Below are positions 43,201-58,372 of a stretch of DNA of 58,372 nt, piece by piece. The notes beneath the pieces were generated by a model, which was given only the letters and a program-made list of their open reading frames with translations, did no database searches and had not been told where the DNA came from. Each line of letters opens with the position of its first letter. Positions within the stretch are counted from its first letter, which is position 1. The position numbers and the translations under genes are program-made. Origin of the DNA: an uncultured Anaerolineae bacterium (lineage in GTDB: Bacteria; Chloroflexota; Anaerolineae; J036; Brachytrichaceae); contig CALHLE010000039.1 in the NCBI GenBank assembly GCA_938034415.1, forward strand, positions 1-58,372, written 5' to 3'.

Positions 43201-45062
43201 TGGCCGCCGAACTCGGGCCGTTCCCCGGCTATGAGCGCAACCGCGAGCACATGCTGCGCGTGATCCGCAACCATCGTCGCGCCGCCTACAACGCGCCCGC
43301 GGAGGAGTATGAGGGCTTGAGCATCCCGCCGATGGGCATTGACCCCGCGCACTGCCCGCCCGACCTGCTCAAGGCGGCCCGCGAGGACGCCGACCGCATG
43401 CTGGCGCTGGGCGAGCAGCACGGCTATCGCAACGCGCAGGTCACCGTGATCGCCCCTACGGGCACCATCGGCCTGGTGATGGATTGCGACACCACCGGCA
43501 TCGAACCGGACTTCGCGCTGGTCAAGTTCAAGAAGCTGGCCGGCGGCGGCTACTTCAAGATCGTCAACCAGAGCGTGCCGCCGGCGCTGCGCCGCCTGGG
43601 CTACAGCGAAGCGCAGATCGCGGACATCGTCAAGTATGCCGCCGGGCACGGCACGCTGGTCGGATGCCCGTTCATCAACCCCGAGTCGCTCAAGGCGCGC
43701 GGTTTCACCGACGAAGCATTGGCCAAAGTCGAGGCGGCGCTGGCGACGGCCTTTGAGATTCAGTTTGCCTTCAACAAGTGGACGCTGGGTGAGGATTTTT
43801 GCAGGAACGCCCTCGGCTTCAGCGACGCGCAATTGAACGACTACAAGTTCAACATGTTGGAGGCGCTCGGCTTCAGCAAGGCCGAGATCGGCGCCGCTAA
43901 CGATTACGTGTGCGGCACGATGACCTTGGAGGGCGCGCCGCACCTGAAGGCCGAACACCTGCCGGTGTTCGACTGCGCCAACAAGTGCGGCAAGTACGGC
44001 AATCGCTTCATCTCCCCTGAAGGGCATATCTTGATGATGGCAGCGGCGCAGCCGTTCCTCAGCGGCGCGATCAGCAAGACGATCAACCTGCCTAACGAGG
44101 CCACGGTCGAGGACGTGGCGAACGCCTACATGCTGTCCTGGAAGGTCGGCCTCAAGGCCAACGCGCTGTATCGCGATGGGTCGAAGCTCAGTCAGCCGTT
44201 GAACACATCGAGCGATGAGGCCGAGGAAGCCGCTGCAGAGCTGGTGGGCGAGGCGGCTCAGCAATTGCCGGTGACGCCGCAGCAACAGCAGGTGATCGAG
44301 AAGGTCGTCGTGCGCTATCTGGCCAAGCAGCGCCGCCTGCCCAACCGGCGCACCGGCTACACGCAGAAGGCGAAGATCGGCGGCCAGAGCATCTTCCTGC
44401 GCACCGGCCAGTACGAGGACGGCACGCTGGGCGAGATCTTCATCGACATGCACAAAGAAGGCGCCGGCTTCCGCAGTTTGCTCAACTGCTTTGCCATCGC
44501 CGTATCGCTCGGCCTACAGTATGGCGTGCCGCTTGATGAGTTTGTGGATCAGTTTGTGTTCACCAAGTTCGAGCCGTCCGGCGTCGTCACCGGCAACGAT
44601 CGCATCAAGATGGCGACCAGCGTGATTGATTACATCTTCCGTGAGCTGGCCATCACCTATCTCGGTCGCGAAGACCTGGCCCACGTCGGCGCGACGGGCA
44701 CGGCGTCGGAGTCGCCTGAGCCGGAGTATCTCGACGAAGAAGTGATCAGCGAACGCGCAGCGTCGCCTACTCAGTTACGCTTGCCCGGCCGCGCCTTCAA
44801 CGATGAGACGGCGCAGCAGAACGGCCACGCGCGCGTTGGCGCGCACAAGAGGACCGACAACGGCCAAGCGGGTTTGCGGGCTGCCGGGAGCGCCTCCGCC
44901 AACGGCGTCGCGGCCGTCGCCGGCCGCAGCGAGCAGGCGCGGCTCGCGCGCCTGAAGGGCTATGAAGGCGACCCGTGTCCCGAATGCGGCGCATGGACGC
45001 TGGTGCGCAATGGAACCTGCTTGAAGTGCGAAACGTGCGGCAGCACCACCGGCTGTTCGTAA
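40212..45062 (+). CDS. nrdJ: Cobalamin-dependent class II ribonucleotide reductase NrdJ, interrupted by an intein
   Basis: The 1616-residue precursor becomes about 1211 residues after removal of a 405-residue intein (192-596). It reduces ribonucleotides using adenosylcobalamin. The first redox cysteine follows the intein (Cys597, [11 protein letters not shown]). The thiyl-radical cysteine is in NPCSEY (Cys883 in the precursor) and its redox partner in DTACNLASL (Cys894). The barrel continues through [18 protein letters not shown]. The C-terminus carries a CPECG...CLKCETCG...GCS tail that relays electrons from thioredoxin. There is no N-terminal ATP cone. It follows nrdR closely. AAAGGTG precedes the ATG. 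A long minus-strand frame across the 3' half is a codon-bias shadow. Confidence 0.96.
40785..41999 (+). mobile_element. LAGLIDADG intein in NrdJ
   Basis: The intein begins with Cys1 ([10 protein letters not shown]) after HPQPHA and ends VLVHN, followed by Cys+1 of the host protein (CFIQS). Block B is [11 protein letters not shown] and block F/G is [21 protein letters not shown], with the penultimate His and terminal Asn needed for splicing. The endonuclease has both dodecapeptides: LAGWIQGDG (precursor residues 310-318) and [10 protein letters not shown] (417-426), each with its catalytic Asp. All motifs look intact, so both splicing and homing may be active. Insertion immediately before an active-site cysteine of the reductase is a typical invulnerable target. 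Confidence 0.93.
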
Positions 45063-45101
45063 CCGGTAATGCGTCTTGATCGCCGTCCTCCTCAAAATTG
45101 C

Positions 45102-45142
45102 GGCGGGGACAAGCGCGGCTAACCCCCGCGCCCGTCCCCGCC
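45102..45142 (+). terminator. GC-rich hairpin after nrdJ
   Basis: Nested stems GGCGGGGAC / GTCCCCGCC and GCGCGG / CCGCGC lie 40 bp after nrdJ. There is no T-run. It is the last GC-rich element before composition shifts. Confidence 0.5.
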
Positions 45143-45192
45143 CGAATGCGCCGTCCTCAAACAGGAACGTGTAATAATCCCTAAGAGCAGCG

Positions 45193-45894
45193 ATGGACAT
45201 GTTTGAAGTAACGCCCAGCGCCGTCTTCGCTCATCTCTCGTCTCAGGACAAACATGGGCAAGACGACATGGGTTCGCCAAGCGCCCAATCCTTCCTCGGG
45301 GAATTAGACGCCCAAAAGCGCGGGCAAAAGATGCACGAGGCCATGTTTAGGATGTTTTATACAAACGCCGCGCTCCATAACTGGCCTTTATCTACATTGC
45401 GCGAGGGTATTGAACGATATACGCTCTACCGTGAGGCAGCGATGTCTTTTCCCCTTAATGAAAGAATATGCCTGACCGCTCGGGCAGATATCCTAGCCAT
45501 CTCCCGCGACGAAAAGCGCGCCAGAATCCTTGATTTCAAATTTCACTTTAAGACGCTGCCCAAAGACCTGCACAACAACCTATTCCAGACCATACAGGCG
45601 GATTTTTATACGATATGCTTGTGGAACGCATATCAGGAGGCCGAGGGATGGCAGGCGGATATCGCATTCGCCCATATGCTCGTCCGCGAGGAGACCCCCG
45701 TGCTGCTTTCAGTAACCAGGCGACAGGTAAGCCGGTCCGCCTTTGAAGAAAGCCTGGGTCGTATCAAGCCTTTGGCTATTCACATCTGCAACGTCCAAGA
45801 GTCCGCTGTATCGGCCCAGCCTCAACTCTCTGAAGAAGAGATGGGGCGGGTGGGGGTCGAACCCACACGCTACACAAGTAGCAGAAGATTTTAA
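45193..45894 (+). CDS. Solo PD-(D/E)XK nuclease, RecB/Cas4-like
   Basis: The 233-residue product has the RecB-family nuclease motifs in order: RGQKMHEAMFRMF (the early His motif), LTARADILAIS (motif I Asp), RILDFKFHF (D-x-K) and QTIQADFYTICLW (Q-x-x-x-Y). No helicase or Cas domain is attached and no CRISPR array is in sight. Its job is unknown; such single-domain nucleases occur in phage, defence and repair settings. The reading frame continues to 45894, so its last 17 codons are antisense to the tRNA-Leu gene (MGRVGVEPTRY is translated tRNA). The natural C-terminus may have been lost. It is the first gene of the AT-richer accessory region. Confidence 0.7.
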   Translation: MDMFEVTPSAVFAHLSSQDKHGQDDMGSPSAQSFLGELDAQKRGQKMHEAMFRMFYTNAALHNWPLSTLREGIERYTLYREAAMSFPLNERICLTARADILAISRDEKRARILDFKFHFKTLPKDLHNNLFQTIQADFYTICLWNAYQEAEGWQADIAFAHMLVREETPVLLSVTRRQVSRSAFEESLGRIKPLAIHICNVQESAVSAQPQLSEEEMGRVGVEPTRYTSSRRF

Positions 45895-45927
45895 GTCTCC
45901 GGCGTCTGCCAATTCCGCCACCGCCCC
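45842..45927 (-). tRNA. tRNA-Leu (anticodon UAA)
   Basis: Read on the minus strand the 86-base gene has a 7-bp acceptor stem (GGGGCGG / CCGCCCC), a D-arm (GCGGAATTGGCAGACGC), an anticodon stem GGAGA/TCTTC with loop CTTAAAA giving anticodon TAA, a long class II variable arm (GCTACTTGTGTAGC) and a T-arm with GGTTCGACC. The discriminator base is A; CCA is not encoded. The 3' end points toward the RecB-like nuclease gene, which overlaps it antisense. Confidence 0.95.
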
Positions 45928-46028
45928 GGAACGCGCGCCTTGAGGGAATCTAATGCCTGCGCGGTTCGTCGCCGCCTATTTTATTGCTTGTGCTTGCCAT
46001 TGCTTGTGTTTGCCCCACGGCTCACTCG

Positions 46029-46505
46029 TCATTCTTCTCTCTTGTGCCGCGAGAAAACAATTTGAGGAGAAATAACCTCGACGCGGCCGCGAAGAGATGT
46101 CATCAAGGCTTGAACGCCATTCAATCCCTCCGCCACGCCGCTTCGGTGCCGCAACCAAACGGCGGATGGAGCATAAGCCAACTCGCGGGCGATCTCATAG
46201 CCGGCCTTGTCAATCTCCTCGAAAGCCATAGACGGGGAAAATCCCTCGGCGAATTGGACGAAAATGTAGCCCGTCGCGACCGCTAATAATTCATCCCTCT
46301 GATATACCGGCAAGCCCTGCTCGCCCGCAACAAGGCGTTTTGGGAGAATGACGACCATCTGGTCGTCTAATTGGATAGGCGAGAACATGGATTGCCCTTT
46401 TGCTTGCTCCACGGGCAGGGCAATGAGGTCATTCCTTAGCGTATAAGCGGCTTGTTTATCCCTATTCTGGACGAATATCACGGGAGGGGCATCGTTTCTG
46501 AGCAT
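46029..46505 (-). CDS. Protein with fervidolysin-type (S8 propeptide-like) domain
   Basis: The 158-residue product is not a recognised whole-protein family. The C-terminal 85 residues read as a ferredoxin-like subtilase propeptide: YIFVQFAEGF at the first strand, then FEEIDKAGYEIARELAYAPSAVWLRH, a helix with GLNGVQALMTSL, and EVISPQIVFSRHKRE at the end. This fits the pattern hhVxFxxGxxxxxAxxhhxxxGxxh...VExhxPxhxh. In secreted proteases this domain inhibits and chaperones the catalytic part, but here no protease domain, signal peptide or neighbouring protease exists. The N-terminal 70 residues (VIFVQNRDKQAAYTLRNDLIALP) are unassigned. It might be a stand-alone inhibitor or a binding module. 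Confidence 0.55.
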   Translation of the reverse strand: MLRNDAPPVIFVQNRDKQAAYTLRNDLIALPVEQAKGQSMFSPIQLDDQMVVILPKRLVAGEQGLPVYQRDELLAVATGYIFVQFAEGFSPSMAFEEIDKAGYEIARELAYAPSAVWLRHRSGVAEGLNGVQALMTSLRGRVEVISPQIVFSRHKREE

Positions 46506-46664
46506 CGGGGCCTCTCTACTCTATCATCATCTAACCGCATCACCTTCACGCCCATTGTACATGTCCCTCAACGCCTGCGCATGTCCGTTGTTCGACCATC
46601 GAACACGATACGCAATAAACCCTGCGCCGTATAAAGCAGATTACCGGTTTCCCCTCCTTCTTGC

Positions 46665-46898
46665 CTATGGAGACAAAGGAGGAACGCAATAATATAAAAT
46701 TGCGGTCGCCAAAGCAATCAGGATGACGGTGCCGACCTTAGCCAAGATCGGGAACTCCATTAAACGGATGTAGTTTGCGCTCAAGATGACGCGATAAGCC
46801 GTCTTAAGCCAAAGTCCAACCACCTTCAGGAGCAAAATAGGCAGCTCCTTGAGGCTATTTAACTCGCTCGTTAAAAACTTAAAGATTAGATTGCGCAT
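46665..46898 (-). CDS. Small putative membrane protein
   Basis: A 77-residue frame with a basic amphipathic N-terminus and two hydrophobic stretches (about residues 18-40 and 50-70, ending ATAILYYCVPPLSP). No family is recognised and the ribosome-binding site is weak. It lies in a gene-poor stretch, so it may be real or chance. Confidence 0.35.
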   Translation of the reverse strand: MRNLIFKFLTSELNSLKELPILLLKVVGLWLKTAYRVILSANYIRLMEFPILAKVGTVILIALATAILYYCVPPLSP

Positions 46899-47564
46899 GA
46901 TATATATTATGCCTCATCGAGGTCGCATTTTTCGCAGCCCTGTGCCTTCACATGAGACGGTGACAGCCTTCAGCAAACCTAAGCCGGCAACAGGGGTACG
47001 ATGGTGTGATACATCCCGATCGGCGCTCCGCGCTCCTCCGCTTGACTTTATAGGAGTCACCAAAACATATCCGATTTCTAAAACACGAGGGCGCGCACAT
47101 GCACATCAAGGGGCGGATTACAACATAGACATAATAAAGACATCATTTCGCCATTCTATCTATATTCATCTTCATCCTCTCCTCGCAAGGAGGAGGCATG
47201 TCCAAAAGATGATGAAAGCGCAAGGCCAAACGCTGCCAAATCCGGTTGATGTTCTCCGATGTGTGGCATCCGAGAAGCCGCCTGTGCTTGGTCTGCGGTT
47301 ATAATGATGCATAGGCGTTGGGCAACCGTGGTTGTGACTGTTCGCAATATCGCGGCCGCAATGCCGCGCAGAATCTTAAGCGGACGACAACCGTAACTGC
47401 CCTACCTGTGGCGAGCCCGTCCGTCAGCGGCCGCATTGGAGGATCTGCTATCTGTGACAGTCAGGAAAGTTACGTCTGTCAGATACAAATGCGGTCTGCA
47501 AGACGCTTCAGGGCAAGAAGAGAATCGCGCGCATATTTGCGCACTTTCTTGATAGTAGGTTGTG
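46899..47564. other. Gene-poor stretch, first part
   Basis: No convincing gene is seen here except the decayed zinc-ribbon fragment at 47285-47457. A short CTCCTC-GCAA-GGAGGAG hairpin lies near 47180-47200. Confidence 0.5.
47285..47457 (+). pseudogene. Decayed zinc-ribbon gene fragment
   Basis: In one frame CLVCGYNDA is followed by a TAG stop, then ALGNRGCDCSQYRGRN; after a frameshift a second frame reads NCPTCGEPVRQRPHWRICYL and stops at 47457. Together these give paired cysteine motifs (CxxCG, CxC, CPxCG) like a double zinc ribbon broken by one stop and one frameshift. The intact ancestor is inferred. Confidence 0.35.
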
Positions 47565-47786
47565 ATGAGCAATAGCGAGCACTTGCGTGAGATGGTTGAT
47601 GCCACATCATCCGCGCTGGATCAGATCATCGCCGAACTAAGGAGCGCGGGCATCAGCGGCATCAGCCGCCGCGACATCGAGACGTTGCAAACTGCCGCGC
47701 AACGCTTAAGGCAAATATCCGCCCGCGTGGGTGCGACGGAAGCGCACCGCTCAACGGAACACCCTCAGAAAGGGGTATTGCGCTGA
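47565..47786 (+). CDS. Small helical hypothetical protein
   Basis: A 73-residue frame from the ATG at 47565, with a short AGG at 47557-47559 before it. The product is predicted to be two helices (LREMVDATSSALDQIIAELR and DIETLQTAAQRLRQISARVG) and a polar tail. No family is recognised. The composition looks protein-like, but there is no other support. Confidence 0.4.
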   Translation: MSNSEHLREMVDATSSALDQIIAELRSAGISGISRRDIETLQTAAQRLRQISARVGATEAHRSTEHPQKGVLR

Positions 47787-48863
47787 TCTTCCCACTCGCG
47801 CCCTGCATGCTCGCGGTTGATAGTACGGACAGGTAACGGCGTCTTAGCAACTTTCGCCGCGACAAAGCGTCGCTCCCTTTAGTGGCATGCAAGACAGGGG
47901 GGCGCACATGTGCGACGCGACATTTGGGTCAAACCCTCTTCCTGGGCGTTCCCGCGTTATAGAACCACTTGGCCCTAAGCGCGAGCGGCGAGTGTAGCGC
48001 GACGGCGCGCTTAAATGCTTGCCTCTCTCACATGTCCCTCAACTTGGAACCTCGACCGCGCATGACAAGCGGCGTCCTTCCTCTTCTGTTGTTTTTCTGT
48101 TGTTTTACCTGCACATCACGGGCTGATGGAAGTGCTCTTGGCCGGGGTAAAGGGACTCCGCACGGTGGACGTCGTTTGATGAGGTGGGGGCGTTCGCAAG
48201 CCCATCGAAGTTGAACAAGAATCGCTCGCCGCTCAAATTTTGCGTTTGCAAAATCATCTGTCTGGCAAATAGGGGCTTGGGAATTACATCGCTTGACCGG
48301 CGATGAATAGCGCAATGGTGCGCGGCGTTCGCCGCATAAATTAAACGGGCAGGGGACTGCACAACTTAAAGCGCGTCGCGAAAGATGCCGATGCGCAAGC
48401 GCAGCCCTGTTGCCGCTCGACTACGCAACTTCGTAGGCCCGGCACTTGCGAGGTCGAGATATGGCAAGCCACGTAGAGGAATGCCGGGCAAGAAGACGGG
48501 CAACAGACTTTCGTCGTGGTTGCATTGGACGATTTCGCCTCATGTTGCTGGACGTATGGGCGCATGGTATGTATGAAACGATATCGGGGGTTGGGCGGGT
48601 TTCAATTTCAAGAAGGCTCGGGACGAGGGCATACCTAAAGGACGTGATTTGGTCCTGTTTGCGTTACGGACATGCGGATGATAGGCGCGAAGGATGTGGT
48701 CGACCGGTGCGCGCGACTCAAGAAACCTGCCTAGATCCGAATAGTCATCGGTCGAGGTACAAGCACCATCCCATCGTGGGGTATCTCGGTGAGGGGGACA
48801 AGGTCATGCTTCCCGCCTGAAGGCAAGGGCGGGCTGCTGGGCAAGACGACTTGGCCTAGCAGA
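47787..48863. other. 1.1-kb stretch with no supportable gene
   Basis: Frames here are short and Arg/Cys-rich with no family motif; the longest rightward one (48446-48820, 124 codons) looks like chance or decayed coding. A 12-bp palindrome (CGCACATGTGCG, 47913-47924) and a CCCGCC...GGGCGGG hairpin at about 48815-48837, beyond the end of the leftward operon, are the only structured elements noticed. No rnpB, tmRNA or CRISPR pattern was seen. Confidence 0.5.
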
Positions 48864-49565
48864 TCAGGCCGCTTGGACGACTTGGAGGGGCGTCAGCATT
48901 TCCAGGCGATGGTCTTTTTGTGGGAGGTTGACGTGTGCGACCACTTGGCGGTCGGATAAGCGCGACGCCAGTCTTGGGGAGATAGTCGCAATATCATGCA
49001 CGTCTTGGCTTGACGTAACCAAAGTCGGAAGGCGCATTTCAAACCGGGTATCGATGATTGCGTCCACTACGTCGAGCGCCTTCTGGTTCCCCGTAATGAG
49101 CAGGTCTAGGTCGTCCAACAGGAAAGCCGGCACCTCCTGATAGGTCTGTATGACCTCTTTGATCCTACTGGGATGGGAAGAGGCGATACTGAATTTGAGG
49201 TCGTTTGCCTGAATGCCATAAACGAGCTTGCCCCCTCTGATGATTTCCCAGTACGATTCGCGCAAGATTGAGGTTTTACCACTGCCTATCGGCCCAAATA
49301 TGAAGAGGAATGGGCGCCCCGAGGCGTGATCGCCACTTATTGTCGAGTATATGAAACGACGAATTGTCTCGTAGTCGCTAAGGGCCAGATATTTTGCGAA
49401 AGGCTTACGAGTCACTGAAAAAGCAATGGAGCGGCTGCTCTTTTCGGCGGATGCTGATTCAGCCCTGGCGATGCCACTCGGGCATGCACAGAATCCTATC
49501 TGGCTGGCGTCTCTTAACAGGATATATCCCGTATCAGAGCAACGTTTGCAATTGTAGTCTTTCAT
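48864..49565 (-). CDS. DnaC/IstB-like AAA+ ATPase with N-terminal zinc motif
   Basis: The 233-residue product begins with a zinc-binding pattern (CKRCSDTGYI...GFCACPSG, four cysteines) like that of DnaC/DnaI helicase loaders. The AAA+ core has Walker A FGPIGSGKT, Walker B VPAFLLDDLDLLI, a sensor 1-like LPTLVTSSQDVHDI, and the SPRLASRLSDRQ arginine-finger box typical of DnaC/IstB. These proteins load replicative helicases or assist transposases. No replication gene or transposase is adjacent; it is the last gene of a five-gene leftward operon, 41 bp after the previous stop. Its partner is unknown. Confidence 0.78.
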   Translation of the reverse strand: MKDYNCKRCSDTGYILLRDASQIGFCACPSGIARAESASAEKSSRSIAFSVTRKPFAKYLALSDYETIRRFIYSTISGDHASGRPFLFIFGPIGSGKTSILRESYWEIIRGGKLVYGIQANDLKFSIASSHPSRIKEVIQTYQEVPAFLLDDLDLLITGNQKALDVVDAIIDTRFEMRLPTLVTSSQDVHDIATISPRLASRLSDRQVVAHVNLPQKDHRLEMLTPLQVVQAA

Positions 49566-49606
49566 ATCATCTCATTATTATAACCTATTACATTAGAAAA
49601 TAGTTA

Positions 49607-50416
49607 TCAAATTCGTTTCTCGACTAAGAATCTTGTTAATATATCTTCTCCTTGTTCATCGTTGTTGGTATTATGATATGTGTTTATATCCGTGGTGGGT
49701 TGAGGAGGAGGACTGGGTTCTGGATTCACCGCCGTTTCAGCCACCATGCCATTAACGTGCGAGAGCATGGCATCCACCGAGAGGCGCCTTCGGATAAAAC
49801 TGAGGAGGTGAAAAGAACAAACCCCTGTGTTCCGGGTTAACTGGGCAATAAAGCCGATGCATTGCTCGATAGTTTGCATCGTAAGCGTTTGATCGAGAAG
49901 GTTCCCCAACCTCTCAGCCCTCATGAGCGCGTGAATCTGGGCGAGTTCCATGCACTCCTCGCCGCTGAGGTTCAATTGTTCTTCCATCTTTGCCGCGTAT
50001 ATCGTGTCGGCTAAGTCAATTTTGGCGACCGGTTCAAAAGAAAATAGCGGACGGATTTGTTTAGGCAGTTGTCCGATATAGACCACAAGGTCATAGATCA
50101 ACGCCCATAGCCGCTCGGCTTTATACCTGATTATCAACCCCTTGATGTTTATGTTTGAAATGCGAATTAGGAGCTCAATTGACCTAAAAGCGAGGCGCTC
50201 CGCTTTCATAATCGGCTCATATCCGTAGATGTTCTCCAGATAGTCGAGCGCGGTGAATATCTCTTCAAAAGTTTTTAGGTTGTCTCCGGGGTCAAGTAAA
50301 TCCGCATACAGGCGCGCGCGCTCCGCGGTCTTGGTAATAGGCAATCGGTTTTCGCTAATCTGCCAGGTGGGGATTTTAGAGTCAAAACTCTTCCACAGGT
50401 CGCTGTAAATTCTCAT
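49607..50416 (-). CDS. Helical hypothetical protein of the accessory operon
   Basis: The 269-residue product is predicted almost entirely helical through residue 215, with AERARLYADLLDPGDNLKTFEEIFTALDYLENIYG and several AERL segments (MKAERLAFRSIELLI, RYKAERLWALIYDLV, LMRAERLGNLLDQ) spaced 35-90 residues apart. The C-terminal 50 residues are polar and Pro/Asn-rich. I do not recognise the family. It lies between the RpoA-CTD-tailed protein and the AAA+ ATPase with 41-42 bp gaps, so it is likely co-transcribed with both. The function is open; an adaptor for the ATPase is a guess from position. Confidence 0.65.
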   Translation of the reverse strand: MRIYSDLWKSFDSKIPTWQISENRLPITKTAERARLYADLLDPGDNLKTFEEIFTALDYLENIYGYEPIMKAERLAFRSIELLIRISNINIKGLIIRYKAERLWALIYDLVVYIGQLPKQIRPLFSFEPVAKIDLADTIYAAKMEEQLNLSGEECMELAQIHALMRAERLGNLLDQTLTMQTIEQCIGFIAQLTRNTGVCSFHLLSFIRRRLSVDAMLSHVNGMVAETAVNPEPSPPPQPTTDINTYHNTNNDEQGEDILTRFLVEKRI

Positions 50417-50458
50417 AGGGGCATTATAAGGCTCGATGGTCTGACTGCGCAGTTATAA

Positions 50459-51220
50459 TCAACACCGAGATGAATTTTGCTCCTTATCATTAAGAATTGC
50501 CTCAAACGCTTGGATAATCGCCGCTCGTTCCCGCTCGTCGAGGAAGATGCCCGGTTTCAATATAAAAAGGCCGTCTCTCTCGTGGTCGCGCAACGCCGCA
50601 TATAGACGGTTGATAAAAGTTATCCCGGCTTCCGCGAGCTTTCGCTTAAGCCCAATATCAAGGTGCACGTCATTTAAGGATATCGCGTCTAACTTCTTCG
50701 CCCGCTTTTTTGCATAAGCAAGATTGATCTGCTCCACGCCGGTGTAATGCGGTGTAAGGCTAAAGAGCCAGCGAAGAGAGGCGATGGCCATTTCCCTCAC
50801 TCTCTGATGGGATGGGAGAAAGACGGCATACCGGCTGAGGTCCTCAAGGGTAACTGGCTTGAGCCTTGGCCTTATCTCAATTCCCCCTAAGCTGGTCGCA
50901 TCTCCGACAGCCTCGATGATTACCTTCTCGGCCCCTTGTATATCGCGCCCAAAGAGGTCGCCTAAGCTGACCGATCTTTCTTTAATGCGCCATCCTTTAC
51001 GGATGGCCGTCGAGAGCACCGTGAAAGGGGGGGGAACGCATATGGTGAAGAATTTGTTAAAAGGAAGGCTGTCGCCAAAGATGCTCACCGCATCAAACCC
51101 GACAACGAGCGCGCCATTCCGAGATAACAACGTCGAAATCGTTAGCTCGGTCAATAACCCTAAATCCTCAAGAGTTTCGGTTGGGTCAAGGGAGTCGTTT
51201 AAAGCCCAAGTGTCAGACAT
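50459..51220 (-). CDS. Hypothetical protein with RpoA-CTD-like C-terminal segment
   Basis: The 253-residue product has an N-terminal alpha/beta part (ALVVGFDAVSIFGDSLPFNKFF, residues 37-58) and a helical middle. The last 70 residues run ISLNDVHLDIGLKRKLAEAGITF, then INRLYAAL...GIFLDERERAAIIQAFEAIL, similar in pattern to the helix-hairpin-helix fold of the RNA polymerase alpha C-terminal domain (LxLSxRxxNxLKRAGIxTVxDLL...GxKSLxEIxxxL). That suggests DNA or transcription-complex contact. No family covers the whole protein. It is the third gene of the leftward operon, 64 bp after the large helical protein. Confidence 0.65.
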   Translation of the reverse strand: MSDTWALNDSLDPTETLEDLGLLTELTISTLLSRNGALVVGFDAVSIFGDSLPFNKFFTICVPPPFTVLSTAIRKGWRIKERSVSLGDLFGRDIQGAEKVIIEAVGDATSLGGIEIRPRLKPVTLEDLSRYAVFLPSHQRVREMAIASLRWLFSLTPHYTGVEQINLAYAKKRAKKLDAISLNDVHLDIGLKRKLAEAGITFINRLYAALRDHERDGLFILKPGIFLDERERAAIIQAFEAILNDKEQNSSRC

Positions 51221-51284
51221 AAAACGTTAAAGGCGTAAATGCTCTCTTGTCATTTTCTTCATCGCCGGCTTAGTCCAATTTAGG

Positions 51285-53093
51285 CTAACGGCTTAGCGGG
51301 ATGTACTCCTCTTCATCAGGTTCATCAGGCAATTCCCACAGCACTGACAACGATAGAAAGAGAGGCTGACACAATTCAAACGGGATCGGTGCAGCGAGGA
51401 ACGCGCTCAACTTAAATTCTTTGTCCATGAGACAGAAACGATTAAACGCAGCGCCCTCTTCCGGCGACAGAATGTCAACAATGTTCACCTGGGCTTCTTC
51501 AGGCACCATACGGGCGAGCACATGAAGGGCAAGCCCGGCGAACTTTTTGATGTCTGTGACGGATATATCTTGCGCCGTCGCCACCGCATAATAGGCCGCC
51601 ATGCTGTCGGCTTCTTTGCATAACGATGACAGGAGGTCGAGTGGCATTTGATGAGTGTACCCTTGGATGTACAAATCGCGCGCAGCAGCAATGACGCGAG
51701 ATGCGCCACGGGGTTCCCACCACGTGCGAGCCTCAGCGGGGGCGCGGGAGAGGGCGACCAAGTAAGCGTCATAAGCCACAGTCCGGCAAAGGTCTAAAGA
51801 CGACGATGCCTCTGCGGATTTCTCATCATCGTCAAGCAAAGCGGCAAGCCCCACATCGTCATCTACCAGGGCGGAATATACCTGTCCGGCAAACGGCAGT
51901 TCCCCCACTTCTTTAATGCAGGCATAGACCTCATCCGGCGTGGCATGCTTGTTCAGCCAGCGGCGGACAAGCGCAACTTGCGGCGCGTTCATATCTCCTA
52001 GAAGGGGGGCGAGTTGTCTCCAGCTTTTGAAAAGCGCCAGGCGCTCATCCAAGCCGATGGCCTTGGATACGAAGTCAGGGTTAATAGATAAGAATTCAGA
52101 AAAGGCGAAGATATCAAAAATATCGACAGTCGCTCGGTCGCTTGAAGGTATATCAACCCTTCGTCCAAGACACAAATTGCACAGTGCGCGCGTAATGGGT
52201 GAAGGCAGTTTTTGTTGTAAAAACTCCAGGATGGTAAGTGTAGATGCGTGACGGATGGCCTTCACTTGCGTGTGAAGTGAAAGGGGGGCGTCGCTATCGA
52301 TCACCTTTGCTAGAACTGAAAAGGCGTCGTCCACTTCGTCTGAGGCTTCTAGGCGCAGGGACGGCAACCAGTCTAGTGAACTAAAGTGAGGCGACAAGGC
52401 GCGAAAGGCGAGGAGATAACGCCGGACCGCTTCGTCTACGGCGAGCTCCTGAAGGGGTAATTCCGACCCGCCGGCGCTCTTCCATATCCGGTATAACAGG
52501 TCGCTAGCACCGGCGTCGACTAACACGCGCCCCAACCGCGCCAATAAGTCGGGCGTAGCCGTTCGTTCCTGTTCTACGAATGCTCTGATGAGCGTTAGGA
52601 TGGCGGGAGCGGGAAGATATTGTGCGATTAGGTCATAGACCTCACCTTTGTCGCTTAGATTTTCGGCGATGATATCTGCGCGCTTGATGACCGATTCGAC
52701 CAACCGTTCTGGAGCATTTTTGGCCAAGGCGATGAAATCTTCTCGCAGTGTATCCGTTGGATGAACCACGTACACCCACGCCCTTGTCTCTGGGTTTAAG
52801 AACTCACAGATAAACTCGACCAGCCCATGATCCTTATCGATAAACCGCTCGACCGCGTAGAGCGCTTCCTCTTCAGTCAATGTGCATAATATATTAAGAC
52901 GGTCTTCCCCTTTCAGAGGTTTGGCATATAAGGCGCAAAGCAACCGCACACGAGGGGGTTGTTCTCTGATAAACGCCAAGGCGGATTCTCGACTTAACGC
53001 GGATACGCGGCGAAGAGCGGCGACGTCGCGATCGGGTAGATATTCCGCTTTAACTTGAGTCAGGCGCAACCGAGAAAAGGGAGGAAACCGCAT
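51285..53093 (-). CDS. Large all-helical hypothetical protein
   Basis: The 602-residue product is predicted to be nearly all helical, with no signal peptide or membrane segment and an acidic C-terminus (PDEPDEEEYIPLSR). Irregular helical pairs run throughout (LLARLGRVLVDAGASDLLYRIW, LYIQGYTHQMPLDLLSSLC), which could form an alpha-solenoid scaffold. No catalytic motif or named repeat is seen. It begins 18 bp after the SDR-like gene and is the largest member of the leftward operon. I do not recognise the family. Confidence 0.7.
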   Translation of the reverse strand: MRFPPFSRLRLTQVKAEYLPDRDVAALRRVSALSRESALAFIREQPPRVRLLCALYAKPLKGEDRLNILCTLTEEEALYAVERFIDKDHGLVEFICEFLNPETRAWVYVVHPTDTLREDFIALAKNAPERLVESVIKRADIIAENLSDKGEVYDLIAQYLPAPAILTLIRAFVEQERTATPDLLARLGRVLVDAGASDLLYRIWKSAGGSELPLQELAVDEAVRRYLLAFRALSPHFSSLDWLPSLRLEASDEVDDAFSVLAKVIDSDAPLSLHTQVKAIRHASTLTILEFLQQKLPSPITRALCNLCLGRRVDIPSSDRATVDIFDIFAFSEFLSINPDFVSKAIGLDERLALFKSWRQLAPLLGDMNAPQVALVRRWLNKHATPDEVYACIKEVGELPFAGQVYSALVDDDVGLAALLDDDEKSAEASSSLDLCRTVAYDAYLVALSRAPAEARTWWEPRGASRVIAAARDLYIQGYTHQMPLDLLSSLCKEADSMAAYYAVATAQDISVTDIKKFAGLALHVLARMVPEEAQVNIVDILSPEEGAAFNRFCLMDKEFKLSAFLAAPIPFELCQPLFLSLSVLWELPDEPDEEEYIPLSR

Positions 53094-53111
53094 AGGCTCG
53101 ATAAGCTGGTG

Positions 53112-54236
53112 TCACTTAATCTGCCCTGCTATCCAGGCACGAATGGCGCGTATTGTTGCGTCCCATCGGTTGATCTGCTGCGTTAGATAGGAGGGTGAAG
53201 CCGGGAGGCGTTCGATGTGTTGTTTATATTTCTCCACCATCTCGGCCGTGATGCGACGGGTGAGTTGGGTCGCATATGACCAGTCGCATGATAACTCAGC
53301 GTCAACTTCCGAGGCATTTGTAAGTGCATCATTGAGCGTAATAGGGATGCCCCTTTCGTCGTTTAATTCCTCAACGAAAGTACCAACCTTGGGGAAGGCG
53401 TCGAACTCATCACGCGCTCGGTGGGAGGCAATCGCTTGGCGCATCTCCTCCGAAATCCACCACAGAGGGTCTTCAATGAGCGATATGGCGCGAATTCGCC
53501 GAAGCAGCGATTCGCGCGATAAGTCTTGCGCTTCAGCTATTTCGATGAGCGTTGGCCCTGGCGGAGGACATATCCACGCCCGCAACGCGCGGTGAGTGGA
53601 TATGTGGGACAAAATCCCTGAGAATAAAGACGGGAATTGCAGCGAAAATAATAGTCTCAGCCTGCCGTTCGGCGAAAGCGACTTTGGCAACCAGAACCAG
53701 TGTCTTCGCTCCTTAAGGCTAGCCAAGAATGCCGGGAATCCGCTGGATAGTGGCCCGAAGATCATCGGCGTTTTTATATATAAGATAGGTTTGTTCAGAT
53801 GACGACAAACCTTCATCATTTCGTATTCTATGCGGAACGGGGAAGGGGATAATAAGCGCCTCGACTTAAAGAGATGATGATATACGGAAGATACGACAAC
53901 AACGGCTGCTGATCTGGCGATAAGGGGTTTGATGTGTTTGATGTCTTCGATTGATTGAAACTCGGGGCCAAGGAATATAATGCGGCCTTCATCGCTTGGT
54001 AGGTGATCTAATTCCGTCTCATTAAGGATGAAGCGTGCTCGTTCTTCGGATGGGATCAAGCTACCTGCGACAGCGCGGGCGAAGATGTACTCCTCTGCAT
54101 TATCGCATTTGACTTCAAAATCAGGCGCGGATGGGTCTAGGCCTTCTACGCAATTCATAGTCATGCACCTCTCTGATGAGGCATACAACAAAGCAAATCC
54201 GAGGGGATCGCTAATCTTATGTATAAAAACAGTCAT
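53112..54236 (-). CDS. Divergent NAD(P)-epimerase/SDR-like protein heading the accessory operon
   Basis: The 374-residue product has an N-terminal half patterned like an extended or atypical SDR: an opening hydrophobic strand (MTVFIHKISDPLGFALLYAS), strand AAVVVVSSVYHHLF at the catalytic Ser position, and PFRIEYEMMKVCRHLNKPILYIKTPMIFGP, which mimics the YxxSKxxxE...xxILRPxxhYGP stretch. The glycine-rich cofactor loop and the Tyr-x3-Lys pair are not preserved, so catalysis is doubtful. The C-terminal 150 residues are helical and unassigned. It is first in a five-gene leftward operon and diverges from the repeat-gene array across a very AT-rich 265-bp gap. Confidence 0.55.
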   Translation of the reverse strand: MTVFIHKISDPLGFALLYASSERCMTMNCVEGLDPSAPDFEVKCDNAEEYIFARAVAGSLIPSEERARFILNETELDHLPSDEGRIIFLGPEFQSIEDIKHIKPLIARSAAVVVVSSVYHHLFKSRRLLSPSPFRIEYEMMKVCRHLNKPILYIKTPMIFGPLSSGFPAFLASLKERRHWFWLPKSLSPNGRLRLLFSLQFPSLFSGILSHISTHRALRAWICPPPGPTLIEIAEAQDLSRESLLRRIRAISLIEDPLWWISEEMRQAIASHRARDEFDAFPKVGTFVEELNDERGIPITLNDALTNASEVDAELSCDWSYATQLTRRITAEMVEKYKQHIERLPASPSYLTQQINRWDATIRAIRAWIAGQIK

Positions 54237-54501
54237 ATTATTATTTTATCACGACTCGACCGTCGTTCATTGACCCTTAACCTTTTAACTCAAGCCGTCT
54301 AATTAGCTAAGATAAGGCGGGCACAAATATATAATGCGATTCAGATAATTAAATTAAATCTATTTTATAGTATTCACTTATTTTAATTAAGCATAAAGAG
54401 AATATTTAATATATTAGCCGTCTTGCATTTAACATTTATTCACCGACTTTTTCAATAATTGACTTTGAATCTTTCTAGCCTGAAAGCCTTATAGCTAAGA
54501 T
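54237..54501. promoter_or_regulatory. AT-rich divergent promoter region
   Basis: This 265-bp gap between the leftward operon and the repeat array is very AT-rich, with many TATAAT-like words (TATAATG, TATAGTATT, AATATTTAATATATTA). No single promoter can be assigned with confidence. Confidence 0.4.
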
Positions 54502-55060
54502 ATGCCCAAGGAACTGAAGTCCATAAGTTACGAAGAGATGCAACGCGAGTTATTGGTACGTCTTAGCATTGACGGCCGATTGCTGTGCCGGGCCATCAAG
54601 AGTTTGGCGAGAATTACCGAAGGGCTACAGTGCAATGCGTTGCGTTTTCTTAATTGGAAGGCGAATAGATGTATCACGCCACTAGGGACTGGAGGGGGGA
54701 TCACCGACGACCAACGGCGCGCGGTGTTCAACCAATTGGAAGGTGAATGGCCGTATATGTTCGGCTATGATTGGCGGGGGATCACCGACGAGCAGCGGCA
54801 TATGGCGTTCAACCGGCTTGAGAGCGAATGACTGTATTGAGCTGGCATGAAGTGGAAGGGTATAACAGACGACCATCGAATCAAGATGTTAGGCGGACTA
54901 CATGGCAATTACTTGCATCGGGCTTTAATTGAATAACCCAACATCAAACAAGAAGACGTTATTAGTTTGATCTATGACAAAAAAAATAAAACAAAATCGA
55001 ATTACTAGATTGTATTAAACCAACACCAAGCATAAATAAGTCGGAAAAGGATAAGGAATA
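54502..55060 (+). pseudogene. Repeat-protein paralogue A, inactivated
   Basis: A 109-residue frame starts MPKELKSISYEEMQ and reaches two repeats of the 27-residue family (ITDDQRRAVFNQLEGEW and ITDEQRHMAFNRLESE), then stops at 54831. The stop is TGA where the paralogues have TGG (Trp) in EGEWLY. Beyond it the homologous C-terminal cap continues (GMKWKGITDDHRIKML, PNIKQEDVISLIYD) but is broken by another TGA, a TAA again at a Trp codon, and a frameshift. The N-terminal 60 residues differ from the other copies. The noncoding tail also matches that of paralogue C. This is a decaying first member of the array. Confidence 0.8.
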
Positions 55061-55123
55061 TAAAAGGATATTTTATTTTTTAATTTAATTTCTAAAGAAA
55101 ATTAGGTCTTCTTTTCTCACATA

Positions 55124-55250
55124 CGACTTGTGTGGTGCCGTTGGCAGATGCATTTTGGGGGACGCCAAGAAGCCTTTGCTGATACTGATGCGCAATGGCA
55201 TAGGGCATATGCTTTATTTTGGGGCTTATGACTATATAACTATATAAGCC
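55124..55250 (+). promoter_or_regulatory. Conserved leader of repeat gene B
   Basis: This 127-bp stretch from CGACTTGTG to the ATG is shared with the leaders of genes C and D. It contains an inverted repeat (GTGCCGTTG 55135-55143 / CAATGGCAT 55193-55201, pairing with G-U wobbles) and ends TTTTGGGGCTTATG...TATAACTATATAAGCC directly before the ATG, with no Shine-Dalgarno. Confidence 0.7.
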
Positions 55251-56537
55251 ATGTCTAATGCTCAAGATTTCACAAGCCTCGAGGGAGAGGCTCTATACGT
55301 CGCAGGCAGGTACTGGGTGGGAATCACCGACGACATGCGGCGTTCGGAGTTCAGCCGCCTGGAGGGAGAGTGGCTGTTTGCGGCCGGCGCGTATTGGTCT
55401 GGGGTCACCGACGAGCAGCGGCGCGCAGCGTTCAGCCGGCTGGAGGGCGAATGGCTGTACAGGGCCGGCAGGGATTGGCCGGGGATCACCGACGAGCAGC
55501 GATGTGCGGCGTTCAGCCGACTTGAGGGCGAATGGCTGTACGAGGCCGGCATGGGATGGTCAGGGATCACCAACAAACAACGTTGTGAGGCATTCAGCCG
55601 ACTAGAAGGCTATTGGCTGATTGAGGCTGGCGAGAAATGGACGGGGATCACCGAAGAGCAGCGGCGCGAAGCGTTTGACCGTCTGGAGGGTAAATGGCTG
55701 TATCGCGCCGGCAAGTACTGGTCGGGAATCACCGACGACATGCGGCGTTCGGCGTTCAGCCGGCTAGAGGGCTGGTGGCTGTATGAGGCTGGCGATGATT
55801 GGTCGGGGATCACCGACGAGCAGCGACGTGCGGCGTTCAGCCGGCTGGAGGGCGAATGGTTGTACCACGCTGGCATGAGATGGACGGGGATTAACGATGA
55901 GCAGCGGCGCGAGGCGTTTGACAGGCTGGAAGGCGAATGGCTGTATCGGGCTGGCATAGAGTGGTCGGGTGTCACCGACGAGCAGCGGCGCGCAGCATTC
56001 AACCGGCTGGAGGGCGAATGGCTGTTTAAGGCTGGCTATGAATGGTTTGTGATCACCGGCGAGATGCGGCGCGAGGCGTTCAGCCGGCTTGAGGGCGAAT
56101 GGCTGTATCACGCAGGCTGGTTGTGGTCGTGGATCACCGATGAGCAGCGGCGCGAAGTGTTCGACCGACTGGAAGGCAAATGGCTGTATCTGGCCGGCTT
56201 GTATTGGCGAGGAGTTACCGATGAACAGCGGCGCGCGGCGTTCGAGCGGCTGGAGGGAGAACGGCTGTATAAGGCTGGTATGGAATGGAAGGGGATAACA
56301 GACTACCACCGAAGCAAGATGTTAGGCAAACTAAGCGGCAATTGGTTATATAAGGCTTTAGTTGAATGGCCAGGCATTAAACAAGAAGATGTGATTAGTT
56401 TGCTATATGAGGCGGACAACAAAAACAAAATCGCATTACTAAATTGCATTAAATCAATACCTCACATAAATAAATGTAAAAAATATAATAAGTCTAAAAG
56501 CGCATCTTTTAGATTTATCAATTTGATTATAAAATAA
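55251..56537 (+). CDS. 27-residue tandem-repeat protein, paralogue B (12 repeats)
   Basis: The 428-residue product consists of an N-cap (MSNAQDFTSLEGEALYVAG), twelve consecutive 27-residue repeats of the form [IV]TDEQRRAAFSRLEGEWLYxAGxxWSG, and a C-cap (ITDYHRSKMLGKLSGNWLYK, then WPGIKQEDVISLLYEADNKNK and a basic tail). Each repeat is probably two helices. The framework is nearly invariant; the residue after WLY and the pair after AG vary (A/AY, R/RD, E/MG, E/EK, R/KY, E/DD, H/MR, R/IE, K/YE, H/WL, L/LY, K/ME). No signal peptide or catalytic motif is present. The 81-bp DNA units are also very alike, GC-rich within AT-rich flanks. I do not recognise the repeat as a named family. Confidence 0.85.
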   Translation: MSNAQDFTSLEGEALYVAGRYWVGITDDMRRSEFSRLEGEWLFAAGAYWSGVTDEQRRAAFSRLEGEWLYRAGRDWPGITDEQRCAAFSRLEGEWLYEAGMGWSGITNKQRCEAFSRLEGYWLIEAGEKWTGITEEQRREAFDRLEGKWLYRAGKYWSGITDDMRRSAFSRLEGWWLYEAGDDWSGITDEQRRAAFSRLEGEWLYHAGMRWTGINDEQRREAFDRLEGEWLYRAGIEWSGVTDEQRRAAFNRLEGEWLFKAGYEWFVITGEMRREAFSRLEGEWLYHAGWLWSWITDEQRREVFDRLEGKWLYLAGLYWRGVTDEQRRAAFERLEGERLYKAGMEWKGITDYHRSKMLGKLSGNWLYKALVEWPGIKQEDVISLLYEADNKNKIALLNCIKSIPHINKCKKYNKSKSASFRFINLIIK

Positions 56538-56557
56538 TGTTATACCTTCTTTCAAAG

Positions 56558-56688
56558 CGACTTGTGCGGTTCCGTTGGCAGATGCATGCATCTGAGGAAA
56601 CATCTAAAAGTGTATGCAGATACTGGCGCGCAACGGCACAGGGCATGTGCTTTCTTTTGGGGCTTATGAGCATATAACTATACAAGCC
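56558..56688 (+). promoter_or_regulatory. Conserved leader of repeat gene C
   Basis: A 131-bp leader homologous to those of B and D. The inverted repeat is GTTCCGTTG (56569-56577) / CAACGGCAC (56631-56639), with one mismatch. It ends TTTTGGGGCTTATG, then TATAACTATACAAGCC, directly before the ATG. Confidence 0.7.
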
Positions 56689-57390
56689 ATGTCTAATGCT
56701 CAAGATTTCATAAGTCTAGAAGGCGACGCTCTATATATTGCAGGCAAGGAGTGGGAAGATATCACTGACGAGCAGCGGCGCGCAGCGTTCAGCCTATTGG
56801 AAGGCGAATGGCTGTACAAGGCCGGCTGTGATTGGTCGGGGATCACCAAAGAGATACGGCGCGCGGCATTTGGCAGACTTGAGGGCAAATGGCTTGTTGA
56901 GGCCGGCATGTCCTGGTCGGGGGTCACCGACGAGATGCGGCGCGCGGCGTTCGACCGGCTGGAGGGCAAATGGCTGTATTGTGCCGGCGTGTTGTGGTCT
57001 GGTATAACCGACGAGCAGCGGCGCGCGGAGTTCGAGCAGCTGGAGGGCCAATGGCTGTATCTGGCCGGCTTGTATTGGCGGGAAGTTACCAACGAGCAGC
57101 GGCGCGCGGTGTTCGACCGGCTGGATGGCGAATGGCTGTATAAGGCTGGTATGGAATGGAAGGGGATAACAGACTACCACCGGAGCAAGATGCTAGGCAA
57201 ACTACGCGGCGAGTGGCTATATCAGGCTTTAATGAAATGGCCCAACATCAAACAAGAAGACTTGATTAGTTTGCTCTATGATGCGAACAATAAAAACAAG
57301 ATCGCGTTATTACATTACATTGAATCAATGCTACACATAAAGTGCCCTAAAAAGGATAAGGAATATAAAATGGCATTTCCTATTTGTTAA
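56689..57390 (+). CDS. 27-residue tandem-repeat protein, paralogue C (5 repeats)
   Basis: From the ATG homologous to the other copies, the product is 233 residues: N-cap MSNAQDFISLEGDALYIAG, five 27-residue repeats, and a C-cap (ITDYHRSKMLGKLRGEWLYQ, then WPNIKQEDLISLLYDANNKNK). The three variable positions read K/CD, E/MS, C/VL, L/LY and K/ME. The last two repeats and the C-cap are close to those of paralogue B, including the L/LY and K/ME pairs, which fits recent duplication or gene conversion. Repeat number differs from B (5 against 12). An upstream in-frame ATG (56614) lies inside the conserved leader and is not used. Confidence 0.85.
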   Translation: MSNAQDFISLEGDALYIAGKEWEDITDEQRRAAFSLLEGEWLYKAGCDWSGITKEIRRAAFGRLEGKWLVEAGMSWSGVTDEMRRAAFDRLEGKWLYCAGVLWSGITDEQRRAEFEQLEGQWLYLAGLYWREVTNEQRRAVFDRLDGEWLYKAGMEWKGITDYHRSKMLGKLRGEWLYQALMKWPNIKQEDLISLLYDANNKNKIALLHYIESMLHIKCPKKDKEYKMAFPIC

Positions 57391-57428
57391 TTTAAATGAG
57401 AAATAAAATTATATCTTTTGCGCACACA

Positions 57429-57561
57429 CGACTTGTGTAGTGCCGTTTTCGGATGCATCTGGGGGCGGAACCCAAGAATCTTCTGCTGATACTGGCGCAC
57501 AACGGCACAAGGAATATGCTTTGTTTTGGGGCGTATGCCTATATATATAACTATATAAGCC
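57429..57561 (+). promoter_or_regulatory. Conserved leader of repeat gene D
   Basis: A 133-bp leader homologous to those of B and C. The inverted repeat is GTGCCGTTT (57440-57448) / CAACGGCAC (57500-57508), with eight of nine positions pairing. It ends in TTTTGGGGCGTATG and a doubled TATA box just before the ATG. Confidence 0.7.
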
Positions 57562-58372
57562 ATGTCTAACACTAAAGATTTCACGAGCCTCGAAGGGAAA
57601 GACCTGTATATCGCAGGCAAGGACTGGTCGGGAGTCACCGACGATCAGCGGCGCGATGCGTTCAGCCGACTTGAGGGAGAATGGCTGTATCGCGCCGGCT
57701 GTGACTGGAAGGGGATCACCAACAAGCAGCGGCGCGCGGCGTTTAGCCGACTTGAGGGAGAATGGCTGTATCTGGCTGGTTTTTGTTGGCCTGGGGTGAC
57801 TGCCGAGCAGCAGTGCGAGGCGTTCAGTCGGCTGGAAGGTGAATGGCTGTACAAGGCCGGCCGTGATTGGTCGGGGATCACCGACGACATGCGGCGTGCA
57901 GCATTCAGCCGGCTAGAGGGCTGGTGGCTGTATTACGCCGGCTTCCACCGAGAATGGTCGGGTGTTACCGACGAGCAGCGGCGCGAAGCGTTCGAACGTC
58001 TGGAAGGCGAATTGCTGGTTTGGGCCGGCAGATGGTGGTTGGGTGTTACTGAAAAGCAGCGACGCGCGGCATTCAACAGGCTGGAGGGTAAATGCCTGTA
58101 CGAGGCCGGTAGGTTTTGGTTGGGTGTTACCGACAAGCAGCGACGCGCGGCGTTCAACCGGCTAGAGGACGAATGGCTGTATAAGGCCGGCTGTGATTGG
58201 AAGGGGATCACCGACGAACAGCGGTGCGAGGCGCTCAGCCGGCTGGATGACTATTGGCTGTATTGGGCCAGCAAGGATTGGTCGGGGATCACCGACGAGC
58301 AGCGGCGCGCAGTGTTCGGCCGGCTGGAGGACTGTTGGCTGTTTTACGCCGGCTTCTACCGGGAATGGTCGG
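57562..58372 (+). CDS. 27-residue tandem-repeat protein, paralogue D (runs off window)
   Basis: The frame is open from the ATG at 57562 to the end of the window, giving 270 residues so far. After the N-cap (MSNTKDFTSLEGKDLYIAG) come about nine repeats. Most are 27 residues; two carry a two-residue insertion in the variable part (AGFHREWSG and AGFYREWS). Variable positions include R/CD, L/FC, K/RD, W/RW, E/RF and K/CD. The framework is slightly more eroded than in B (LDDYWLYWAS, EDCWLFYAG). The C-cap is outside the window. Confidence 0.85.
   Translation, partial: MSNTKDFTSLEGKDLYIAGKDWSGVTDDQRRDAFSRLEGEWLYRAGCDWKGITNKQRRAAFSRLEGEWLYLAGFCWPGVTAEQQCEAFSRLEGEWLYKAGRDWSGITDDMRRAAFSRLEGWWLYYAGFHREWSGVTDEQRREAFERLEGELLVWAGRWWLGVTEKQRRAAFNRLEGKCLYEAGRFWLGVTDKQRRAAFNRLEDEWLYKAGCDWKGITDEQRCEALSRLDDYWLYWASKDWSGITDEQRRAVFGRLEDCWLFYAGFYREWS

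Follow-up and report, generated by a model that had tools for sequence, protein, structure and literature searches.

The window analysed here, a 58,372-nucleotide stretch that is the complete contig C39 of a metagenome assembly (G000; 2.83 Mb, 83 contigs), closes with a 3.9-kb tandem array of genes whose products are built from repeated 27-residue units held between common caps. The 16S rRNA on contig C3 and the gene set point to a probable member of the Chloroflexota. The 27-residue repeat defines a new alpha-solenoid sequence family whose unit is short and regular. With moderate confidence, the array is read as a diversified repertoire of alpha-solenoid binding proteins, in which blocks of repeats have been exchanged and surface positions have been placed under selection. 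The variable surface of these proteins would be expected to bind something.

A tandem arrangement of 27-residue-unit genes with shared caps, as proposed by an earlier sequence-only reading, was confirmed by translation and by Tandem Repeats Finder, which returned an 81-bp period with scores up to 789 and a 243-bp period with a score of 976. All array genes lie on the plus strand. Pseudogene A (54638..54999) retains 2 units of 27 residues and a degraded C-cap interrupted by in-frame stops (2 TGA and 1 TAA). Gene B (55251..56537) encodes 428 residues and consists of a 24-residue N-cap (55251-55322), 12 units of exactly 27 residues each (55323-56294) and an 80-residue C-cap (56295-56537). The 233-residue product of gene C (56689..57390) comprises the N-cap (56689-56760), 5 units (56761-57165) and the C-cap (57166-57390). 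Gene D (57562..58372) is cut by the contig end after the N-cap and 9 units, of which the ninth is truncated and two are lengthened. The caps are common to the array genes, measuring 24 residues at the N-terminus and about 75-80 residues at the C-terminus, and the unit length of 27 residues is kept throughout except for a few short insertions. The unit numbers previously given for A to D were retained. The start of gene C was moved to 56689, where the protein begins MSNAQDF as in B and D, in preference to a longer open reading frame at 56614, and the open reading frame assigned to A was found to begin (54502) in unrelated sequence, with homology starting near 54638. The gene and unit counts in the window are minima because the contig ends inside gene D, and both sources of the array, the genome of the window and an alphaproteobacterial MAG described below, are metagenome assemblies in which tandem repeats are prone to misassembly. 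The consensus drawn from 78 units reads [IV]TD-E-[QM]-RR-[EA]-AF-x-RLEG-E-WLY-x-AG-xx-W-x-G.

Conserved 5' regions precede gene B (55110..55250), gene C (56548..56688; 95% identity to the counterpart at gene c1 of L018) and gene D (57420..57561), all on the plus strand. In all array genes an AT-rich element, ATATAACTATAT, is located immediately 5' of the ATG (in gene B, TATATAACTATATAAGCC ends at the ATG), and a Shine-Dalgarno sequence before the ATG is absent from every one of them. Short or absent leaders are plausible for these genes, since a Shine-Dalgarno sequence is also missing from several further genes of the contig, of which some carry TATAAT-like boxes a short way upstream. A dyad, GGCTTAT...ATAAGCC, abuts the ATG at 55221-55250 in gene B and at the equivalent positions of the other genes. 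A longer imperfect dyad (TGCCGTTG/CAACGGCA) was also observed about 50-110 bases upstream of the array ATGs, and both dyads are possible candidate operators. The conserved upstream stem was not shown to be a conserved RNA, compensatory changes being seen in only 3 of 26 pairs, with several pairs broken; the stem may instead be a DNA dyad or hairpin.

The array is preceded by a block of foreign composition (45062..54500; GC 0.517 vs 0.642) containing unknown genes, a second tRNA-Leu(UAA), a TnpB-like remnant and a DnaC-like ATPase. At position 45,061 the GC content falls from 0.642 to 0.517 and the tetranucleotide distance rises from 0.15 to 0.35-0.5. An assembly fork coincides with this break: contig C64 starts with a 64-bp exact overlap (window 44998-45061) ending there, and beyond the overlap it carries a gene order conserved in other genomes of the genus. 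All sequence beyond 45,061 is thus an alternative continuation, and the position of the array inside a block of foreign composition that begins at the fork makes its host uncertain. Five consecutive minus-strand genes (48864-54236), the last of which diverges from the array, belong to no recognisable families except for the DnaC-like ATPase; the AAA+ protein flanking the array resembles a DnaC-like helicase loader. The class II ribonucleotide reductase open reading frame that ends at the fork (40212-45062; 1616 aa) seems to contain an intein insert.

Two explanations of this fork were weighed, and each is compatible with any functional reading of the array. According to the first, the array stems from another organism and was misjoined to the 45-kb bacterial core, as suggested by the jump in GC and tetranucleotide usage, by the genus-conserved neighbourhood on C64 and by a tetranucleotide usage of the block nearer to that of the alphaproteobacterial MAG (0.256) than to that of its own core (0.483). 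Against a misjoin, the exact ribonucleotide reductase 3' end is common to both branches, which stay similar over roughly the next 20 bases, and the contig contains no N. The divergent tRNA-Leu(UAA) near the start of the block (45842-45927) shows 87-88% identity to its native counterpart in the genus, whose copy in this assembly lies in C12, but at most 82% over longer matches to plasmid-borne tRNAs of other phyla. In addition, two further contigs of this assembly, C6 and C78, carry at their ends copies with 78-79% identity to the degraded TnpB-like transposase remnant (47221-47559). The block is therefore probably a strain-specific acquired island, the explanation favoured because the two branches share the reductase 3' end and some 20 further bases and because the tRNA and the TnpB remnant look native; a chimeric join is less likely, although it retains a real share of the probability.

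Relatives of the array were rare. A repeat-profile search of 84,980 species genomes recovered no more than three contigs (3.4-4.3 kb), which belong to a single MAG, binned as 'uncultured Alphaproteobacteria bacterium S1_Bin_MAXBIN__191_1_1'. Besides eight array genes, intact or cut, and remnants, these contigs show no recognisable gene; being short and composed of repeats only, they are doubtfully assigned to the bin. Intergenic non-coding DNA of the MAG and the window reaches 89-95% identity, which indicates a very recent array common to both sources. In a sample of 60 close genomes from the genus and family, none contained the array. No array relative was found in 60 further relatives, in 400 genomes of the phylum of the window (G000 itself excepted), in 385 genomes of the class of the MAG (the MAG itself excepted) or in viral contigs. 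Weak tblastn matches to Klebsiella plasmids were rejected as unrelated 66-bp DNA repeats next to parA; in one such plasmid (L019, 2714-5011), 35 of these repeats were observed, and the likeness of their translation to the 27-residue repeat is a coincidence. A match at 18% identity to Salmonella phage SEN22 was likewise judged a chance repeat match.

No fitting family for the array proteins was found in Pfam, NCBIfam or the PDB, and searches of NCBIfam, PHROGs, PADLOC and PDB sequences returned nothing convincing, including among known defence families. The earlier claim that no named repeat family has this consensus therefore holds, Pfam yielding only a partial match to DUF1289 (PF06945). This match covers profile positions 26-45 of 47, a stretch of 19 residues (W..ITDEQRR.AF.RL), and exceeds the cut-off of 27 bits only when summed over repeats, in gene B (32.4 bits), gene D (35.1 bits) and gene a2 of L016 (35.1 bits); gene C, gene a1 of L016 and the L017 and L018 proteins score below it. 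The conserved cysteines of DUF1289 sit in the first half of the family. The likeness is confined to the 19-residue stretch, whereas the cysteine-bearing N-terminal half is unmatched and none of the array proteins aligns with all 47 positions. A second short repeat, DUF4116 (PF13475), has a unit length of about 25, and its G, L and A residues are presumably spaced similarly to those of the array repeat. DUF4116 has been modelled as an alpha-solenoid (PMC8078820), as the array repeat is here, but neither the array proteins nor the consensus repeat gave an hmmscan match to it up to an E value of 10. Matches of 10-30 residues to SymE, LRR_TTSS, POLH-Rev1_HhH and phrog_33710 were discarded as products of summing over repeats.

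Structure prediction for gene B, suggested in the earlier reading, gave a high-confidence alpha-solenoid with two short helices per unit. The AlphaFold2 model of the 428-residue protein is an uninterrupted solenoid with a mean pLDDT of 89.5 and most units above 93, and that of the 320-residue product of gene a2 of L016, from the other MAG, is likewise uninterrupted with a mean pLDDT of 88.5. The two-helix unit is the same in both models, with helices at residues 3-10 and 15-24 joined by short loops. Each unit would form a hairpin that stacks on the next, with a core made by the conserved F10, L13, W17, L18, A21 and W25, while the N-cap and C-cap would close the ends of the rod. Structure searches returned generic solenoids only. 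PR65/HEAT, ARM and PUF proteins, whose units are 36-47 residues long, share the class of stacked helical repeats with the array proteins; however, Foldseek gave no PDB match with an E value below 1e-3 (TM about 0.1), and the PR65 (Z up to 10.3), importin and PUF entries listed by VIA-align have Z scores usual for unrelated helical repeats.

The earlier suggestion that the genes recombine was supported by comparison of caps and repeats at the DNA level, where caps are 88-96% identical and repeat blocks are 63-85% identical with no positional match. Between gene a2 and gene c2, identity is 0.96 in the N-cap and 0.96 at the start of the C-cap, whereas the units between them reach 0.65-0.85 with no diagonal. 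Gene B and gene c2 likewise have caps at 0.89 and 0.88 identity and units at 0.63-0.83 without positional correspondence. Synonymous codon identity is 0.89-0.94 in the caps compared to 0.69-0.75 in the best-matching units; since synonymous codons differ in the units too, the blocks have been replaced and not altered by residue selection alone. DNA identity between units is 0.73 in every class, whether within a gene, between genes or between sources. In every complete gene tested the GC content is 0.62-0.63 in the repeats and 0.28-0.38 in the C-caps, which fits repeats evolving as a separate recombining pool; biased gene conversion would explain the GC content of the repeats. Complete genes carry 5 to 13 units, in keeping with the proteins of changing length that had been anticipated. 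Repeat blocks appear to have been swapped among paralogues, presumably by homologous recombination.

The rapid evolution proposed in the same reading was found to be limited to five positions per unit. Across 78 units, entropy was 2.5-3.4 bits at positions 11, 20, 23, 24 and 26 and at most 1.6 bits elsewhere, L13, L18 and W25 were invariant, and 73 different four-residue words were counted. All four bases vary across the repeat units. Pooled pN/pS at the five positions was 1.19 (bootstrap 1.07-1.33) compared to 0.30 (0.27-0.33) at the others, as determined by Nei-Gojobori counts that treat related units as independent; the excess over 1 is slight and could in part reflect relaxation at surface sites. 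Variability in helix B is one-sided (about 121 degrees; permutation p 0.01) and lies opposite L18/A21/W25, the grouping of positions 20, 23 and 24 on one helix face being derived from a helical wheel. Positions 20, 23, 24 and 26 covary with their neighbours, with pairs 23-24 and 20-23 significant at p 0.006 or less, while for positions 5, 8 and 11 no association with other positions was seen.

The same values bear on a neutral expansion, in which the surface positions are relaxed and the turnover of units is a by-product of recombination with no role in recognition. The modest elevation of pN/pS is compatible with such an expansion, exposed positions of repeats often tolerate change, and pseudogenes occur. 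However, positions 5, 8 and 16, which are also likely to be exposed, vary far less than the five extreme ones, and the covariation of pairs 23-24 and 20-23 is not readily reconciled with relaxed sites. Neutral expansion is accordingly considered unlikely, and selection on a diversified binding surface is preferred.

Under the preferred reading, positions 11, 20, 23, 24 and 26, which recur from unit to unit along the rod, would form a variable recognition surface. Blocks of repeats may be exchanged and resized among members of the array by gene conversion or unequal crossing-over to give new proteins, with caps and promoters kept and selection favouring new residues at the surface positions. 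A close analogue of such a process is the HNWD family (het-d/het-e/het-r) of Podospora anserina, in which units are exchanged within and between paralogues, repeat number varies, and four interaction-surface residues per repeat are under diversifying selection tied to recognition specificity (PMC1805685, PMC2873952). The array shares repeat exchange, variable repeat number and a few diversified surface residues per repeat with HNWD: its five positions diversify relative to the others and include one face of helix B, and its near-identical caps enclose non-corresponding blocks whose units do not cluster by gene. HNWD, however, is a fungal WD40 beta-propeller within a STAND NTPase protein, whereas the array encodes stand-alone alpha-solenoids in prokaryotic DNA; no NTPase (STAND/NACHT) domain was found in the array proteins, which are therefore not HNWD/STAND NLR members, and array units (73% DNA identity) are more diverged than HNWD units. 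Given this HNWD-like surface variation and unit exchange, the most likely function would be recognition in conflict, directed at phage, a rival cell or self/non-self. The array proteins comprise caps and repeats only, with no fused effector or signalling domain, so a signal would pass via a partner or the proteins would act by binding alone.

Two further groups of diversified receptors were compared. TPR and ANK are repeats of 34 and 33 residues, respectively, with known profiles. In fungal NLR proteins both are helical repeats, conserved internally, in which three to five positions, almost all on the concave face, are under positive selection (PMC4986451); the 27-residue unit is likewise a conserved helical repeat with few variable positions, but it has no Pfam similarity to them. 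Antigen sensors of multicellular bacteria diversified by diversity-generating retroelements have been proposed as diversified recognition proteins in conflict systems (PMC10907252). In these sensors variation arises by error-prone reverse transcription in defined variable regions, whereas in the array it occurs in every repeat, and no reverse transcriptase match was obtained among the scanned island and array proteins.

An antigen-like family, in which variation would be a means of escaping predators, phages or hosts and not of binding, could likewise show tandem paralogues, a pseudogene, differing repeat numbers and diversifying positions. The N-caps, however, start MSNxxDFxxLEG and, as read from the sequence, have no hydrophobic signal, membrane segment or secretion domain; the array proteins are probably cytoplasmic, and an evasive role is regarded as rather improbable. 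Modular nucleic-acid binding of the TALE or PUF kind, with each unit reading one or a few bases via positions 20/23/24, is very improbable in spite of the two-helix unit, the few variable residues per repeat and the presence of PUF among many solenoids in the structural comparison (Z 7.0-8.0), given that the 78 units display 62 different words at 20/23/24, far beyond the need of a four-base code, that acidic or aromatic residues (D, E, W, Y) are frequent at the variable positions, where no marked basic character is seen, and that Foldseek gave no PDB match below 1e-3.

If the array is a recognition repertoire, repeat exchange would be a route by which bacteria or their mobile elements, like fungi, diversify receptors with no need of a diversity-generating retroelement. 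It is tentatively suggested, as a possibility well short of probable, that the array represents a retroelement-independent prokaryotic repertoire of island-borne, stand-alone solenoid receptors with continuous exchange of blocks between constant caps, a counterpart of HNWD or of the cassettes of lamprey variable lymphocyte receptors. The repeat combines a conserved core with five freely variable positions, scores of combinations of which have apparently been sampled in nature, and its regular 27-residue unit would offer a natural framework well suited to the engineering of binders.
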